From: Agromyces aurantiacus
GTDB lineage: Bacteria > Actinomycetota > Actinomycetes > Actinomycetales > Microbacteriaceae
Length of the DNA stretch: 64,000 bases
Direction: 5' to 3'
Assembly (NCBI RefSeq): GCF_016907355.1
Contig: NZ_JAFBBW010000001.1
Coordinates: 3,224,001 to 3,288,000, forward strand
In this document: piece by piece, positions 12,594 through 18,629 of the stretch
Layout: the number at the start of each line of letters is the position of its first letter
Position numbering within the stretch: position 1 is the first letter of the stretch
Notes under the pieces: model-generated
Databases searched by the model: none
Told to the model about the DNA's origin: nothing
What the model saw: the letters and a program-made list of their open reading frames with translations, nothing else
Position numbers and translations under genes: made by a program

Positions 12594-13130
12594 ATGAGCG
12601 CCGACCCGTCCGCCCGCATCCTCACCATCTCCGGCACCCCGGCGCCCGAGCTCGACCCGACCGCGTTCGTCGCGCTCGGTGCCGTGGTCGTCGGCCAGGT
12701 GCGCCTCGCCGCGCAGTCGAGCGTCTGGTACAACGCGGTGCTGCGCGCCGAGGCCGAGACCATCACGCTCGGCGAGCGCTCGAACCTGCAGGACGGCGTC
12801 GTCTGCCACGTCGACGCGGGCTACCCCGTGACGATCGGCAGCGGGGTCTCGGTCGGGCACCGCGCGGTGCTGCACGGCTGCACCGTCGAGGACGACTGCC
12901 TCATCGGCATGGGCGCGACGATCCTCAACGGCGCCGTGATCGGCCGCGGCTCACTCGTCGCGGCCGGCGCCGTGGTGCTCGAGGGCACCGTCGTGCCGCC
13001 CGGCTCGCTCGTCGCCGGGGTGCCCGGCAAGGTGCGGCGCGAGCTCACCGCCGACGAGCAGGTCGGCATCCGACGCAACGCCGAGGCGTACCTCGCGCAC
13101 GTCGCCCGGCACACCGCGCCCGTCGACTGA
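12594..13130 (+). CDS. Gamma-class carbonic anhydrase-like hexapeptide protein
   Basis: This 178-residue protein is a left-handed beta-helix of hexapeptide repeats. It contains SSVWYNAVLRAE, NLQDGVVCHVDAGYPVTIG and GHRAVLHGCTVEDDCLIGMGATILNG split over several turns. The histidines in VCHVD, VGHRA and LHGC are at the metal-ligand positions of YrdA/CaiE-type gamma carbonic anhydrases. Activity in this subgroup is often unproven. The 3' end overlaps the convergent DUF6716 gene by about 180 nt if that gene's long tail is real. Confidence 0.88.
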   Translation: MSADPSARILTISGTPAPELDPTAFVALGAVVVGQVRLAAQSSVWYNAVLRAEAETITLGERSNLQDGVVCHVDAGYPVTIGSGVSVGHRAVLHGCTVEDDCLIGMGATILNGAVIGRGSLVAAGAVVLEGTVVPPGSLVAGVPGKVRRELTADEQVGIRRNAEAYLAHVARHTAPVD

Positions 13131-14486
13131 CGACGTCGGCGCCGGCGCCGGCGACGGCAGCGATGACGACGGGGCGGATGCCGCGGGCGCCGCGACCGCG
13201 CCCAGCCCGCGCCGCAGCATCCGCTCGAGCCGGCGCACCCGGCGCACGACCGCGCGCACCGGCACCCCGACGCCCCACGCGATCGCGCCGCTCACGGTGC
13301 GGTCGAACCCGCCGAGCATGCGACGTCGCTCGAACGCCGCCCGCAGCGCCCCGCCCGAGAGGTCGTACCGGCGCTCGATCGGCGGCAGCGGCACGATCTC
13401 GCGGGCCTCGACGAGCGCGCCGAGCCGGCCGACCCAGTCGTCGGCGTCGGTGCCGTGGAAGTAGTTGTCGGCGAGCCAGCGCGGGTCGGCGTGCCGGAAG
13501 CGGCCGGCGACGAGGTCGGACGTCGATCCGAACAGGCCCGCGCCCTCGAAGACCGTGTTGATCATCGCCGGCGAGACGCCGAAGTCGTCCACGAGCAGGG
13601 TCGGCACATCGCGCGCGACCGCCTCGAGCGCCGCCGTCGAGCTCACGGTCACGAGCGCGGCAGCGCGCGCGAGCTTCGCGGCCATCGGGCCGTCCTCGAC
13701 GACGAGGTTCGCGGGCACGTGGTCGAGCTCGGCGAGCAGGCCGGCGTAGTCGTGCTGCTCGGCGTGGGTCTGGGCCTCGCCGGCGCGCGCCCGCACCTTG
13801 ACGACGACACGGTGCGACGGGCTGCGTCGCGCGAGCTCGGCGAGCGCGCGGAGCAGCCGAAGGCGGTCGTCGCGTTCACCGGGCACCTTGGCCTGGGCCG
13901 CGAAGACGACGTCGTTCCCGGCGGTGCGTGAGGTCGCCGCCCGGCCCGCGGCGGGCCGGAGGAAGGGCAGCGTCGCGAGGCCGAACGACGTGTCGATGCC
14001 GAGCTCGGCCGCGTTCGCGCGGAACTCGCGCACCTCGCGCCGGCTGTGCAGCACGACGAGGTCGGCCTGCTCGCGATAGATCACGGCCTTCGGCACCGCG
14101 GGGATCGTGAGCCCGGGGAACCCGCTCACGATCGCGGGGCGGTTCGCTCGGCGCACGAGCCGCGGCGCGACGACGCGCACGAAGGGTCCGCGCAGCGCGA
14201 GCAGCACCGCGTGCGGGTCGAACGCGTCGAGCTCGTCGTCGAGGCCGCGTTGCACGCCGCGGCGGTCGAGCGGCACGATCCGCACGTCCTCCGGCGCGAA
14301 GCGCGTGCCCGAGAGCGCGTGCGCGAGCTGCCGCTCGCTCGGCATCACGGGCGACGCGATCACGACGAGGCGCGACGTCCAGTCCGCGGGCAGCGTCGAG
14401 GCGAGCGCCGCGCCCCACTTCACGTACGAGTCGGCGTCGGCGACGACGAGCAGGCGGCGCGGCGCGCCATCCGTACGGCCCCTCAC
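12951..14486 (-). CDS. DUF6716 putative glycosyltransferase-like protein of a nonulosonic acid locus
   Basis: This 511-residue protein is recognised as a DUF6716-type protein of unknown activity, often annotated as a putative glycosyltransferase. It opens LLVVADADSYVKWGAALAST, with later GFPGLTIPAVPKAVIYREQADLVVLHSRREV and a GT-B-like C-terminal half (VFAAQAKVPGERDDR, TVSSTAALEAVARDVPTLLV). Each of those longer stretches reads as two adjoining blocks. The GTG start overlaps the neuB stop (GTGA). A transferase that attaches the sugar made by NeuB/NeuA is likely. The last 60 or so residues lie antisense to the carbonic anhydrase gene and look non-conserved. Confidence 0.7.
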   Translation of the reverse strand: MRGRTDGAPRRLLVVADADSYVKWGAALASTLPADWTSRLVVIASPVMPSERQLAHALSGTRFAPEDVRIVPLDRRGVQRGLDDELDAFDPHAVLLALRGPFVRVVAPRLVRRANRPAIVSGFPGLTIPAVPKAVIYREQADLVVLHSRREVREFRANAAELGIDTSFGLATLPFLRPAAGRAATSRTAGNDVVFAAQAKVPGERDDRLRLLRALAELARRSPSHRVVVKVRARAGEAQTHAEQHDYAGLLAELDHVPANLVVEDGPMAAKLARAAALVTVSSTAALEAVARDVPTLLVDDFGVSPAMINTVFEGAGLFGSTSDLVAGRFRHADPRWLADNYFHGTDADDWVGRLGALVEAREIVPLPPIERRYDLSGGALRAAFERRRMLGGFDRTVSGAIAWGVGVPVRAVVRRVRRLERMLRRGLGAVAAPAASAPSSSLPSPAPAPTSSVDGRGVPGDVREVRLGVASDADLLVGGELAPHLAGHPGDERAGRHDGALEHHGAGRDE

Positions 14487-15355
14487 GCGAGCACCCGGCG
14501 GAGCTTGGCCTTCGGCGCCTCCTCGCCGGGGTAGACGCGCTTGACGCCGTCGCCGAGCGCGTCGCCGATGATGCGGATGTCGCGCACGAGGTGCTCGAGG
14601 CCCTGCGGCTCGAGCGACGCCGAATGGTCGGAGCCCCACATGGTGCGGTCGAGCGTGATGTGCCGTTCGACGCAGGTCGCGCCGAGCGCGACGGCCGCGA
14701 GCGAGATCTGCAGTCCCCGCTCGTGGCCCGAGTAGCCGACGGGCACGCCGGGGAACCGCCGCGTGAGCGCGGGGATCATGAGCAGGTTCGCCTCCTCGGG
14801 CGGCATCGGGTAGCTCGAGGTCGCGTGCAGGATCACGAGGCGCTCGGTGCCGAGCACCGTGACGGCGCGGTCGATCTCGTCCATGGTCGACATGCCGGTC
14901 GAGAGGATGACGGGCTTGCCCGTGTCGCGGACCGCCTCGAGCAGCTCGAGGTCGGTGACCGAGGCCGACGCGATCTTGTGCGCGACGACGCCGTACGACT
15001 CGAGGTCGGCGACCGCGGGCACGTCCCACGGCGAGGCGAACCAGTCGAGGCCGTGCAGCACGGCATGAGCGGCGATCTGCGCGTACTCGTCGCGGCCGAA
15101 CTCGACCCGGTGCCGGTACTCGAGGTAGGTCATGGTGCCCCACGGCGTCTCGCGCGGCATGAGCTTCATGTGCTCGGGCGTCGAGACGTCGGGCGTGCGC
15201 TTCTGGAACTTCACCGCCTGCGCGCCCGCCTGCGCGGCCACCTCGATGAGGCGCTTCGCGAGCTCGACGTCGCCGTTGTGGTTCAGGCCGATCTCGGCGA
15301 TGACGTAGACGGGCTCGTACTCGCCGATGGCGGCGTGGCCGATGCGCACGGACAT
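14483..15355 (-). CDS. neuB: N-acetylneuraminate synthase family protein (NeuB-like), short form
   Basis: This 290-residue protein has the NeuB barrel. Visible blocks are VIAEIGLNHNGDVELAKRLI, AQAVKFQKRTPDVSTPEHMK, the substrate loop STGMSTMDEID, LHATSSYPMPPEEANL, and GYSGHERGLQISLAAVALGA followed by CVERHITLD. It condenses PEP with an N-acetyl sugar to form sialic, legionaminic or a related nonulosonic acid. Typical NeuB proteins are about 340-350 residues because of a C-terminal SAF domain that closes the active site of the partner; that domain is missing here. It sits between the CMP-synthetase and DUF6716 genes. The exact sugar is unknown. Confidence 0.88.
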   Translation of the reverse strand: MSVRIGHAAIGEYEPVYVIAEIGLNHNGDVELAKRLIEVAAQAGAQAVKFQKRTPDVSTPEHMKLMPRETPWGTMTYLEYRHRVEFGRDEYAQIAAHAVLHGLDWFASPWDVPAVADLESYGVVAHKIASASVTDLELLEAVRDTGKPVILSTGMSTMDEIDRAVTVLGTERLVILHATSSYPMPPEEANLLMIPALTRRFPGVPVGYSGHERGLQISLAAVALGATCVERHITLDRTMWGSDHSASLEPQGLEHLVRDIRIIGDALGDGVKRVYPGEEAPKAKLRRVLA

Positions 15356-15396
15356 GGTGGCTCGCTCTCGTGTGGTTCGGGTCGGATCGGTTCGGG

Positions 15397-16959
15397 TCAG
15401 GTCGAGGTGACGGATGCCGCGGCCATCGCCTCGCGCTGCCCGCGCGTCGGATGGGCGGGGTCGAGCTCTCGCGGCTCGCGGGCCGGGTCGCGGTCGGCGA
15501 TCGCGTCGGCGTCGACGTCGGTGTCGATGGGTGCTTCGGCGCGGCGCCGCGCGTCGCGCGCGGCGAGCACGAGTTCGGCGAGCTCGCGCACTGCGCCGTG
15601 CCCGCCGTGCCGTTCGAGCACGTGCCGAGCCCGCTCGAGCGCGTCCGGCGCGGCATCCGGCACCGCCAGCGGCCAGCCCACGAGGTCGAGTGCGGGGATG
15701 TCGCCGCGATCGTTGCCGAGGTAGGCGATGCGGTCGAGGCGGATGCCGCGGGCGGCCGCCCACTCGCGGAGCGCCGCGCCCTTGTCGGCGAGCCCCTGGA
15801 TGCAGTCGACGCCGAGTTTCTCGGCGCGCCGGCTGACCACGGGGTTCGCTTCGGCGCTGAGAATGAGCATGGGGATGCCCGCCTCGCGCAGCCGGGCGAC
15901 GCCCGCGCCGTCGGCACGGCTGACCCGCACCGATTCGCGGCCGAGCTCGTCGAGACCGGCGGTGTCGTCGGTGTGGACGCCGTCGAAGTCGGTCACGACC
16001 GCGTCGACGTCGATGAACGGATGCCGCGGGTCGGCCACCCACGCCGTGCCGGCGCCGGCTCGACGCGCGAGCGCCGCGGCCACGCCGCCCGCGAGGCGCC
16101 GGTCGACGCGCGGCGCGAGCGCCCGCGCCCGCGCGAGATCGGCGGCGTCGTCGATCTCGATCGCGGTGTCGGGGTGCACGGCCTGGATGCCGATCCGGCC
16201 GAAGAAGCGGTGGCCCGCCGCCAGGAATCCGTCGGTGCGGAAGACGTAGAACGCGCCGGTCTCGAGGAACTCCGGTTCGCGGTCCTGGCGGCGTGCGCGG
16301 TGCGAGGCGTCGTGGTTGACGCCGATCGCGGTCGCGTTCGCCTCGTCCTCGCGCCAGAGGAACGCGTGCGTCGGCGTGGCCGCGAACACGACGTCCCGTT
16401 CGCCCGACGCGACTCGCTCGATCGCCGCAGCGAGGTCGGCGGGGTCGATGAACGGCGAGGTCGCCTGCACGAACACCGTGATGTCGTCGGCTCCCGACCC
16501 GGCATCCGCCGACCCCGGGCCCGGGCCCGAGGATCCCAGCACGCCCAGCGCGTGCCGCAGGGCGGACTCGCTCGAGGCCTCGGCCCCGGCCAGCTCGGCC
16601 GGCCGCTCGACGACCTCGGCGCCGGCCGCGATGGCGATGTCCGCGATCTCGTCGTCGTCGGTCGTCACCACGACCCGCCCGACCCGGTCGGCGGCGAGCG
16701 CGGCGTGCACCGCACGCGCGACCAGCGGCACGCCGCCGACGCGCGCGACGTTCTTGCCCGGAAGGCCCTGCGACCCGCCGCGCGCGGGGATGATCGCGAT
16801 CGCCCGCGCGGCATCACCGCGCTCGCGGGCGCGGCCACCTGCCGCCGCCGTGCCGCGTGCCGCACCCGCCCCGGCGGCGCGTTCCCCCGCGACACCGCCT
16901 CCCGCGGATGCCGCACGCGCCACGGCGGCGGAGTTCCCGGCGTCCTGGTTGCGACTCAT
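15397..16959 (-). CDS. neuA: CMP-nonulosonate cytidylyltransferase fused to a KdsC-like HAD phosphatase
   Basis: This 520-residue protein joins two enzymes. Residues about 53-290 are a NeuA-type cytidylyltransferase: AIAIIPARGGSQGLPGKNV, FVQATSPFIDPADL and ETGAFYVF. Residues about 318-475 are a KdsC-like HAD domain with the nucleophile pair Asp324/Asp326 in VVTDFDGVHTDD, LILSAE and YLGNDRGDIPAL. So one chain could remove the 9-phosphate and activate the acid with CMP. The first 50 residues are a low-complexity Ala/Gly/Arg stretch. An ATG 6 nt after TAGCTT suggests a leaderless mRNA. The three genes neuA, neuB, DUF6716 run leftward as an operon; no neuC epimerase is seen. Confidence 0.9.
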   Translation of the reverse strand: MSRNQDAGNSAAVARAASAGGGVAGERAAGAGAARGTAAAGGRARERGDAARAIAIIPARGGSQGLPGKNVARVGGVPLVARAVHAALAADRVGRVVVTTDDDEIADIAIAAGAEVVERPAELAGAEASSESALRHALGVLGSSGPGPGSADAGSGADDITVFVQATSPFIDPADLAAAIERVASGERDVVFAATPTHAFLWREDEANATAIGVNHDASHRARRQDREPEFLETGAFYVFRTDGFLAAGHRFFGRIGIQAVHPDTAIEIDDAADLARARALAPRVDRRLAGGVAAALARRAGAGTAWVADPRHPFIDVDAVVTDFDGVHTDDTAGLDELGRESVRVSRADGAGVARLREAGIPMLILSAEANPVVSRRAEKLGVDCIQGLADKGAALREWAAARGIRLDRIAYLGNDRGDIPALDLVGWPLAVPDAAPDALERARHVLERHGGHGAVRELAELVLAARDARRRAEAPIDTDVDADAIADRDPAREPRELDPAHPTRGQREAMAAASVTST

Positions 16960-16965
16960 GCCGCG

Positions 16966-16971
16966 AAGCTA
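16966..16971 (-). promoter_or_regulatory. Leaderless -10 box of the neuA operon
   Basis: TAGCTT on the minus strand ends 6 nt before the neuA ATG at 16959; no ribosome site is present. Confidence 0.45.
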
Positions 16972-17096
16972 TGCGCGCGACCCGTCCACTCCGTGCACGC
17001 CGGGTGAACGTCCGGCGACCACGCGGCTGACAACGCGTGGCACCCGACCCGCGGCGGGAATGCGGCCGCGCGCCCGGCCCCTCCCCATGCCCCGCA

Positions 17097-17250
17097 GTCC
17101 GCACTCCGCACGCCGCACGCCGCACGGACCCCGACGCACGCCGCACGCCGCACGCGGAGCGCCTCACGGACCCACGCCGCACGCCGGATTCCGCACGGCC
17201 CCACGCCGCACGCCTCGCGCCGCACGCGGAGCGCCGCACGGACCCGCGCC
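17097..17250. repeat. Low-complexity CGCCGCA heptamer tract
   Basis: About 150 bp are built from imperfect copies of the 7-mer CGCCGCA. A longer near-repeat around CACGCGGAGCG occurs at 17151 and again at 17223, 72 bp apart. Reading frames through it give only Arg/His/Pro-rich repetitive peptides with no ribosome site. I read it as non-coding simple repeat, lying between the neuA promoter and the 70-bp array. Confidence 0.7.
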
Positions 17251-17272
17251 GCGAATGCTTGCGAACGGCTCA

Positions 17273-17655
17273 TGTCAGCGCAGCCTCATTTGAGGCTGCG
17301 CTGACCTGCCACGTGGCGACGCAGCGCCAAGCCGCGACTCGTGTCAGTCCGGCCTCATGTGAGGCCCGATCGACAAACCCGCATCGCTCGCGCGGCCCGG
17401 CCGCGAACCCATGTCAGCGCGGCCTCAAGTGAGGCTCCATTGACACGAGCCAGGCACGCGGCATCCCTCGACCCGAAATCAGGTGAGCGCGGCCTCAGAT
17501 GAGGCTCCGTTGACACGAGCCGGGCACGCGTCATCCCCTGAACCGAAATCAGGTCAGCGCGGCCTCAAATGAGGCTCCGTTGACACGAGCCACGCGCGCG
17601 GCAACCCCTGACCCGAGATCGTCTCAGCCGGGCCTCATTTGAGGCGGCGTTGAAT
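17273..17655. repeat. Array of six palindromic units with an exact 70-bp period
   Basis: Six 34-bp imperfect palindromes start at 17273, 17342, 17412, 17482, 17552 and 17622 (steps 69, 70, 70, 70, 70). The core is GGCCTCA-NN-TGAGGC. Unit 1 is a perfect 15+15 bp inverted repeat (17274-17288 with 17291-17305) around TT. Units 3-5 end in TTGACA followed by CGAGC. The 36-bp inter-unit segments after units 3-6 resemble each other (CGAGCC, then a GC-rich part, then CCCGAAATC), so these are tandem duplications and not CRISPR spacers. The array lies after the folD stop and before neuA. Confidence 0.9.
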
Positions 17656-17741
17656 CGAGCCACGCGCGCGGCATCCCGCCGCACCATGCGCCAGCGCCGC
17701 GCGCGACCACCGGACGCGGCGGACGCCGCCTCGCCGGCCGG

Positions 17742-18629
17742 TCAGCGCCCGCGGAGCTTGACCTCCGCCGCCTTCACGACGTTCGCGAGGAGCATGGCGC
17801 GCGTCATCGGGCCGACCCCGCCGGGGTTCGGCGAGAGGTGCCCGGCGACCTCGGCGACGGCCGGGTCGACGTCGCCCGTGAGCCGGCCCTTGCCGGTCTC
17901 CTCGTCGGCGACGCGCGTGATGCCCACGTCGAGCACCGCGGCGCCCGGCTTGATCCAGTCGGGCTTGACCATGTGGGGCACGCCCACGGCCGCGACGACG
18001 ATGTCGGCTCGCCGCACCTCGGCGGCGAGGTCGCGCGTGCGCGAGTGCGTCAGCGTCACCGTGGCATCCAGGCCCTTGCGCGTGAAGAGCAGGCCGAGCG
18101 GGCGGCCGACGGTGAGACCGCGACCGATGACGGTCACGTGCTGGCCGCGGATCGGCACGTCGTAGCGCTGGAGCATCTCGACGATGCCCGCGGGCGTGCA
18201 CGGCAGCGGCGAGTGCAGCTCGCCCTCGATGCCGAGCACGAGCCGCCCGAGGTTCGTGGGGTGCAAGCCGTCGGCGTCCTTGAGGGGGTCGATGAGCTCC
18301 AGCATCGCGTTCTCGTCGTGCCCCGTGGGCAGCGGCAGCTGCACGATGTAGCCCGTCACCTCGCGCGCCGAGTTGAGGTCGCGGATCGCCGCGCGCACGT
18401 CGGCCGTCGTCGCCGACGCCGGCAGGTCGACGCGGATCGACTCGATGCCGACCTCGGCGCAGTCGCGGTGCTTTCCGGCGACGTACGAGCGCGAGGCGGG
18501 GTCGTCGCCGACGAGCAGCGTGCCGAGGCCCGGCACGACGCCGTGCGCCCGGAGTTCGGTGATGCGCGTCGACAGCTCCGACTTCACGGCCGATGCGGTG
18601 GCGACGCCGTCGAGGGTGATCGCGGTCAT
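17742..18629 (-). CDS. folD: Bifunctional methylenetetrahydrofolate dehydrogenase/cyclohydrolase
   Basis: This 295-residue protein has the FolD signatures: [17 protein letters not shown] with the catalytic lysine, [18 protein letters not shown], and the NADP-binding [16 protein letters not shown], ending with [19 protein letters not shown]. It interconverts 5,10-methylene-, methenyl- and 10-formyl-tetrahydrofolate. It lies 154 bp downstream of glyA in the same direction, so both one-carbon genes are neighbours, though a hairpin separates them. Length is normal. Confidence 0.96.

Follow-up and report, generated by a model that had tools for sequence, protein, structure and literature searches.

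A dispersed family of long palindromes in Agromyces, arrayed between folD and a neuA-like gene and linked to a putative ArsR/SmtB-family binding protein

The DNA analysed was a stretch of 64,000 nucleotides from Agromyces aurantiacus (hereafter the window), in which an array of six palindromic units lies 3' of folD and upstream of a neuA-like gene (Table 1). The initial annotation had named these two flanking genes, and both names were upheld by the domain matches listed in the table. About 85 bp separate the end of the last unit from the folD stop. A GC-rich degenerate satellite of about twenty 7-bp CCGCACG units (window 17099-17240) adjoins the palindromes on the side of the neuA-like gene. 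Genes for a NeuB-family synthase, a cytidylyltransferase-HAD hydrolase fusion and a DUF6716 putative glycosyltransferase were located at 12951-16959, and the group looks like a sialic-acid-type sugar cluster.

Table 1. Features of the array and its flanking genes (window coordinates)
Feature	Position	Strand	Remarks
Palindromic unit 1	17273..17306	.	Perfect 15+15 inverted repeat around TT; left outer arm GGCTCATGTCAGCG kept
Palindromic unit 2	17342..17375	.	
Palindromic unit 3	17412..17445	.	
Palindromic unit 4	17482..17515	.	
Palindromic unit 5	17552..17585	.	
Palindromic unit 6	17622..17655	.	
Whole array, six type-A elements	17254..17674	.	Match to covariance model R2 (G000:C1:3241254-3241674)
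folD	17742..18629	-	3' end toward array; Pfam PF02882/PF00763
neuA-like gene	15397..16959	-	Cytidylyltransferase and HAD-hydrolase matches; start codon uncertain, gene finder favours 16731

Re-measured coordinates bore out the six units, their start positions and the perfect inverted repeat of unit 1 reported in the initial annotation; the cores lie at 17283, 17352, 17422, 17492, 17562 and 17632, with spacings of 69, 70, 70, 70 and 70 bp. The core GCCTCA-NN-TGAGGC was unchanged in all six units while the outer arms and intervening segments differed, in agreement with the earlier statement that the palindromic halves are better kept than the sequence between them. Within the window the 15-base core pattern was not found elsewhere with up to one mismatch; two places carried it with two mismatches. 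An Rfam search of 16500-18300 gave nothing at gathering score, the only hits being two microRNA models far below it.

The exact core was present in 50 copies in the 3.88-Mb genome and its reversed pattern in none, so the array is far beyond chance. Forty-seven of these cores fell into 16 clusters; the other three (L027, L033 and L034) were dropped as they had no outer arms. The core of L033, at 2001 (G000:C1:3711579), is accompanied by quite different arms (GCGCCCGCGGCATCCG...) and by these is not a member. Alignment A2 held 46 of the 47 units, one unit close to its neighbour being left out, and covariance model R2, built from the 46 units, replaced model R1, which contained 5 base pairs only. 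Searched against the same genome at E up to 1, R2 returned 98 matches, which reduce to 51 distinct units, all within these 16 clusters. The case named in the initial annotation as a refutation, a unit occurring once only in this strain, therefore does not apply. The earlier reading had missed this genome-wide spread as well as the ArsR-family gene described below. All 16 clusters were intergenic according to a codon-usage gene finder, with one array overlapping the end of a called gene by 2 bp. The largest chromosomal stretch with none of the clusters runs from about 1.80 to 3.24 Mb of G000:C1.

In the genome-wide profile the half-site consensus extends about 33 bases from the centre, and the whole element measures about 66-74 bp. 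The 70-bp unit is thus approximately one whole element with no unrelated spacer, and the description of a 34-bp palindrome followed by a separate 36-bp segment had to be given up for a longer palindrome. Nor is the 70-bp period a special feature: the 31 within-cluster spacings in this genome span 47-207 bp, 14 of them being 69 or 70, so 70 bp is not a general phasing. Helical phasing was rejected on the same ground, as periods differ from array to array. Within the arrays, a stretch of about one element has been duplicated head to tail.

An ArsR/SmtB-family gene (G000:C1:1802707-1803168) with five elements directly 3' of it was identified in the same genome. Its locus, between IMP-dehydrogenase-like and CNNM/CorC genes, was an orthologous cluster place in five genomes, four of which carried a small ArsR-family gene just before the elements; in G035 the element is present without the gene. 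A protein search, together with reading of the DNA 3' of the matches, set a group of 24 ArsR genes in 22 of 60 Agromyces genomes apart from weaker paralogues. Eight of these (type A) were always found at the IMP-dehydrogenase-like/CNNM-CorC locus and 16 (type B) mostly beside a LysE-family gene. In the ArsR tree, from which G043 was left out for its broken reading frame, type A formed one clade (99/99) and type B required 2 changes. The ArsR gene was absent from the type-A home locus in G044.

The two gene types are accompanied by different palindromes. A core-bearing palindrome lay 3' of six of the eight type-A genes (a variant in G026 and G020); in the remaining two (G053 and G057) the gene end carried an outer pair without the core, CTCATGTG...CACATGAG. 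For type B, TATGCCAGTTCCSCCTCA palindromes or half-sites lay 3' of 15 of 16 genes, the sixteenth (G051) lying at a contig end; among the 15, the half-sites of G039, G012 and G028 formed no compact palindrome, and the palindrome of G036 had a wide centre. Downstream of the type-B gene of G020 (locus L178), five half-sites follow one another at 117-bp steps, and a complete palindrome is present at one of the five. Genomes G052 and G020 each combine the two ArsR types with the two palindrome types. At eight loci of weaker ArsR matches, neither type was among the top four palindromes of each locus.

Judged by its sequence, the linked protein is ArsR/SmtB-like, with a predicted ArsR-type helix-turn-helix: PF12840 was found in 15 of 15 aligned members of the group and PF01022 in 14 of 15, and SmtB chains and other ArsR structures were matched by sequence (E about 1e-9 for SmtB). 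The A. aurantiacus protein scored 46.3 bits with the NCBIfam metalloregulator model NF033788, below the cut-off of 55, and contains no cysteine. Its helix (L102) reads SASAV, where the other 23 proteins have SR or TR before AV or an equivalent; among the arms of its genome TCAR is commoner than TGAR, which is not so in relatives, and a co-variation of the helix change with the TCAR arms is possible. The idea that the recognition helix changed only where the palindrome was lost was rejected, since G052a and G020a, with palindromes present, are also without the Arg (SHHLA). The helix of G053 and G057 is SHRLG, yet their outer inverted pair is kept. In G019 and G006 a block of about 680 bp, holding both the ArsR gene and the palindrome in A. 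albus, is missing between flanks that match A. albus at 95.6-98.7%; each of the two genomes has one dispersed unit (R2). We read this as a probable loss of the pair, and a gain in A. albus is also possible.

Dispersed copies were counted in the 60 Agromyces genomes. Fourteen genomes had 18-40 type-B half-sites (up to 2 mismatches, both strands summed) and the remaining 46 had 0-13; the reversed control gave up to 15 (median 7), a maximum near the cut of 18. At least 18 half-sites were present in 14 of 16 genomes with a type-B ArsR gene versus none of 44 others (Fisher 7e-12, with a cut set after the counts were seen and a p-value that ignores kinship). The two genomes under the cut were G039 (11) and G051 (0; 77% complete); G032 had variant type-B pairs and no type-B ArsR gene. 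The loop of the type-B palindrome was 4 bases in 28 of 38 units, 5 in five, 3 in four and 1 in one. For type A, exact matches were sought in 84,980 species genomes, among which records very near the A. aurantiacus genome may be absent; 23 stretches were obtained, 19 of them in Agromyces. The remaining four (Roseomonas, two Euryarchaeota MAGs and a Deltaproteobacteria MAG) were treated as chance; the Roseomonas stretch scores 30.5 bits with R2 (E 0.0012). R2 matches occurred in 11 of the 60 Agromyces genomes, by far the most in A. aurantiacus itself, and comprised 4 of 8 genomes with a type-A ArsR gene versus 7 of 52 others. In two of these seven (G025 and G038) the matches are type-B elements, and with these omitted (5/52) p was 0.013; the co-occurrence of type-A elements and type-A genes is weak. 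In G050 (A. tardus) about eight units are present, including an array of four, but neither the home locus nor the rest of the genome has an ArsR gene of this group. Shared ancestry may inflate the co-occurrence of ArsR genes and palindromes.

Elsewhere in the family, an ArsR homologue (1e-20) was found in 35 of 299 genomes, three of them Agromyces, and in 19 of 85 genera, and 18 of 30 homologue loci were examined for an adjoining palindrome. Palindromes scoring 20.8-27.8 lay beside the gene in four of the 18, downstream in G167 and upstream in G208, G121 and G127, and weaker ones in G164, G279, G264 and G104; none was seen at the remaining examined loci. Random 450-base windows had a 95th percentile of 15.6 in a sample that includes element-bearing loci; those drawn from the 64-kb window had one of 12.5 and a highest score of 18.5 among 396. 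The G127 palindrome recurs genome-wide as six inverted pairs, though its half-site total of 20 is little above the 12 of the reversed control, and that of G167 as two inverted pairs in its own genome. In two non-Agromyces genera, then, the ArsR gene goes together with dispersed palindromes whose sequence differs from that in Agromyces.

Orthologous sites were compared to measure constraint. At five type-B places shared by G058 and G025, where the genes on either side also corresponded, the arms were identical at 155 of 160 positions, the loops at 10 of 22 and the 110-bp flanks at 777 of 1100, although at one of the five (L174/L187) the flanks were kept too (203/220). Over all 24 non-array pairs, mixed-type and one-flank pairs included and 9 array-containing pairs left out, the values were 738/856 for arms, 45/76 for loops and 3208/5280 for flanks. 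At some gene ends the palindrome is of type A in one species but of type B in another, as at L072/L180 (both flanking proteins 95-96% identical) and, with one flank matched, at L031/L165 (88%), L093/L193 (96%) and L095/L193 (77%); L086/L175, which rests on 54%, was not counted.

Elements favour convergent gene ends. Outside the ArsR-linked loci, which were left out of the count, 74 loci comprised 35 convergent, 32 tandem, 4 divergent and 3 of unknown context, as against 9, 64 and 51 in a background of 124 gaps 60-900 bp long; the p-values of 3e-11 and 2e-8 are too strong because orthologous places entered the count more than once and the background lacks short convergent gaps. The clusters of A. 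aurantiacus were convergent in eight cases, tandem in eight and divergent in none. Over 43 loci, the 3' end of the nearest flanking gene was a median of 75 bp away.

Pairing between the two arms of a copy differed among the sets. The A. aurantiacus units showed no covariation (67.8% of cells paired versus 67.4% when shuffled), and none in the near and outer blocks. Thirty-five pooled units of relatives were positive (p 0.009-0.019 for the four middle bases, 0.002-0.004 for the outer block), and a set of 23 relatives' units gave no signal, either close to the centre or in the outer block. Within type-B copies the two arms do covary (633/684 versus 606.9 expected), to 20 bases from the centre and no further. 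Single windows far out also had low p: -32..-29 in A. aurantiacus (0.006), -36..-33 in relatives (0.002) and one in type B (0.027). Arms that vary independently around a changeable centre are what separate binding of the two arms would lead one to expect, and the type-B covariation may leave room for a hairpin. Mutational correction of palindromes is another possible source of such covariation.

Taken as a whole, the observations are best explained if the elements are dedicated binding sites of the linked ArsR/SmtB-family winged-helix protein, to which we assign a probability of about 0.6. The folD array would then belong to an Agromyces palindrome family with 16 clusters and 51 units in this genome, bound by a protein encoded elsewhere, at G000:C1:1802707-1803168, and such arrays would have arisen by tandem duplication of the whole element. 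Each arm probably holds one ArsR dimer, whereby the element would amount to two operators back to back. Known SmtB/ArsR operators include 12-2-12 repeats with TGAA-N6-TTCA and TGAA-N6-CTCA, according to the part of PMC8790569 consulted. The type-A arm reads TSAR-N6-CTCA; the fit to operator geometry is weaker in A. aurantiacus, with TGAR in 27 and TSAR in 65 of 94 arms, and relatives' type-A arms read TGAR-N6-CTCA in 35 of 44. The TGAR-N6-YTCA half-site geometry of most relatives' arms may be a likeness to these operators beyond that of protein family. The type-B arm, CCAG-N6-CTCA, falls outside this geometry, and its covariation, which two separate operators do not require, speaks against the two-operator arrangement. 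The Agromyces elements differ from classical operators in their proposed doubling, in their dozens of copies and in lying at gene 3' ends, not promoters. The sites are kept 3' of genes, with convergent pairs the most frequent setting, so the protein, once bound, probably exerts its effect at gene ends. It would block or insulate against read-through there, or help to organise the nucleoid, and would be no promoter repressor. A roadblock or insulator function in particular is put forward as a tentative idea with the odds against it.

Of the three options offered in the initial annotation, a protein target is the best supported and the REP-like pattern was also seen, with an RNA hairpin role, to which the type-B covariation speaks, less probable. 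The palindromes could instead be a selfish, non-autonomous REP-like repeat that spreads by copying, in which ArsR gene and palindrome form a source unit and the protein helps or hitch-hikes. This would accommodate the great differences in copy number between species of one genus, the mixture of arrays and lone copies, and the presence or absence of gene and palindrome as one 680-bp block. Like REP/BIME elements with their RAYT genes (REPtrons), these are short dispersed extragenic palindromes, single or arrayed, and in both cases a copy of the palindrome adjoins the linked gene; here that gene is of the ArsR family and not a RAYT transposase. The defining RAYT gene (Y1_Tnp, PF01797) was found in none of the 60 Agromyces genomes by a search whose control was positive in 5 of 14 named genomes, and a REP/RAYT system was rejected. 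REP elements carry a GTAG/CGTC tag (PMC3733652, as far as consulted); neither GTAG nor CGTC was found as an end tag in the half-site profile, and the element is two-fold symmetric. Insertion-sequence ends or a MITE were likewise rejected, as no insertion sequence with such ends was found and only one half-site lies outside the 16 clusters of A. aurantiacus. With arms kept while loops diverged at orthologous sites, and types A and B at the same gene ends, a selfish repeat appears unlikely, though it is the strongest of the alternatives.

Alternatively, the elements may act as RNA hairpins at gene ends, as two-way terminators or 3' stabilisers, the ArsR gene merely having one as its terminator. 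The location 3' of genes at the short distance given above, often between convergent genes, the strong predicted stems of two lone copies (z -12 and -8), the type-B covariation and the type-B loop length of 1-5 bases all suit such a role. It is nonetheless improbable, given that the A. aurantiacus units do not covary, that arm sequence and not pairing alone is conserved, and that a general terminator would not track the presence of an ArsR gene. Least probable is an ordinary metalloregulator regulon in which ArsR represses promoters through these operators; family membership and the CNNM/CorC transporter genes adjoining the type-A gene point that way, against which stand the avoidance of divergent (promoter) regions (4 of 71 loci of known context), flanking genes with no common pathway and a protein without cysteine.

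Noc, SlmA and MatP are chromosome-organising proteins with dispersed sites, and CRISPR arrays are regular palindromic repeats. The Agromyces elements resemble the sites of the former in being many dispersed palindromes for one, here putative, DNA-binding protein, and differ in the ArsR fold and in strong variation between species. With CRISPR they share regular palindromic repeats, but the in-between segments of the Agromyces array repeat each other.

In a literature search covering titles and abstract openings, with most subscription journals outside it, no paper was found that deals with this repeat or with a family of palindromes linked to an ArsR gene. One Agromyces genome paper reportedly uses a palindrom- word a single time. 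The text of PMC12306157 has no mention of Agromyces, Microbacteri or ArsR. Genome comparison leads us to suggest, at somewhat below even odds, that Microbacteriaceae possess an undescribed two-part system of an ArsR-like protein and co-evolving long palindromes placed at gene ends chromosome-wide, whose protein and palindrome would diverge together between genera and between paralogous types. Such pairing would resemble the joint divergence of RAYT and REP, with a partner that is not a transposase.

Dispersed bacterial palindromes have mostly been explained through transposases, and the question of their function where convergent genes end is a long-standing one. In the present case the partner would seem to be a protein that binds DNA sequence-specifically and whose type goes with that of the palindrome. 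Since the hosts are harmless soil bacteria, with a protein that can be purified and sites that can be deleted, the role of palindromes at gene ends would become directly testable.
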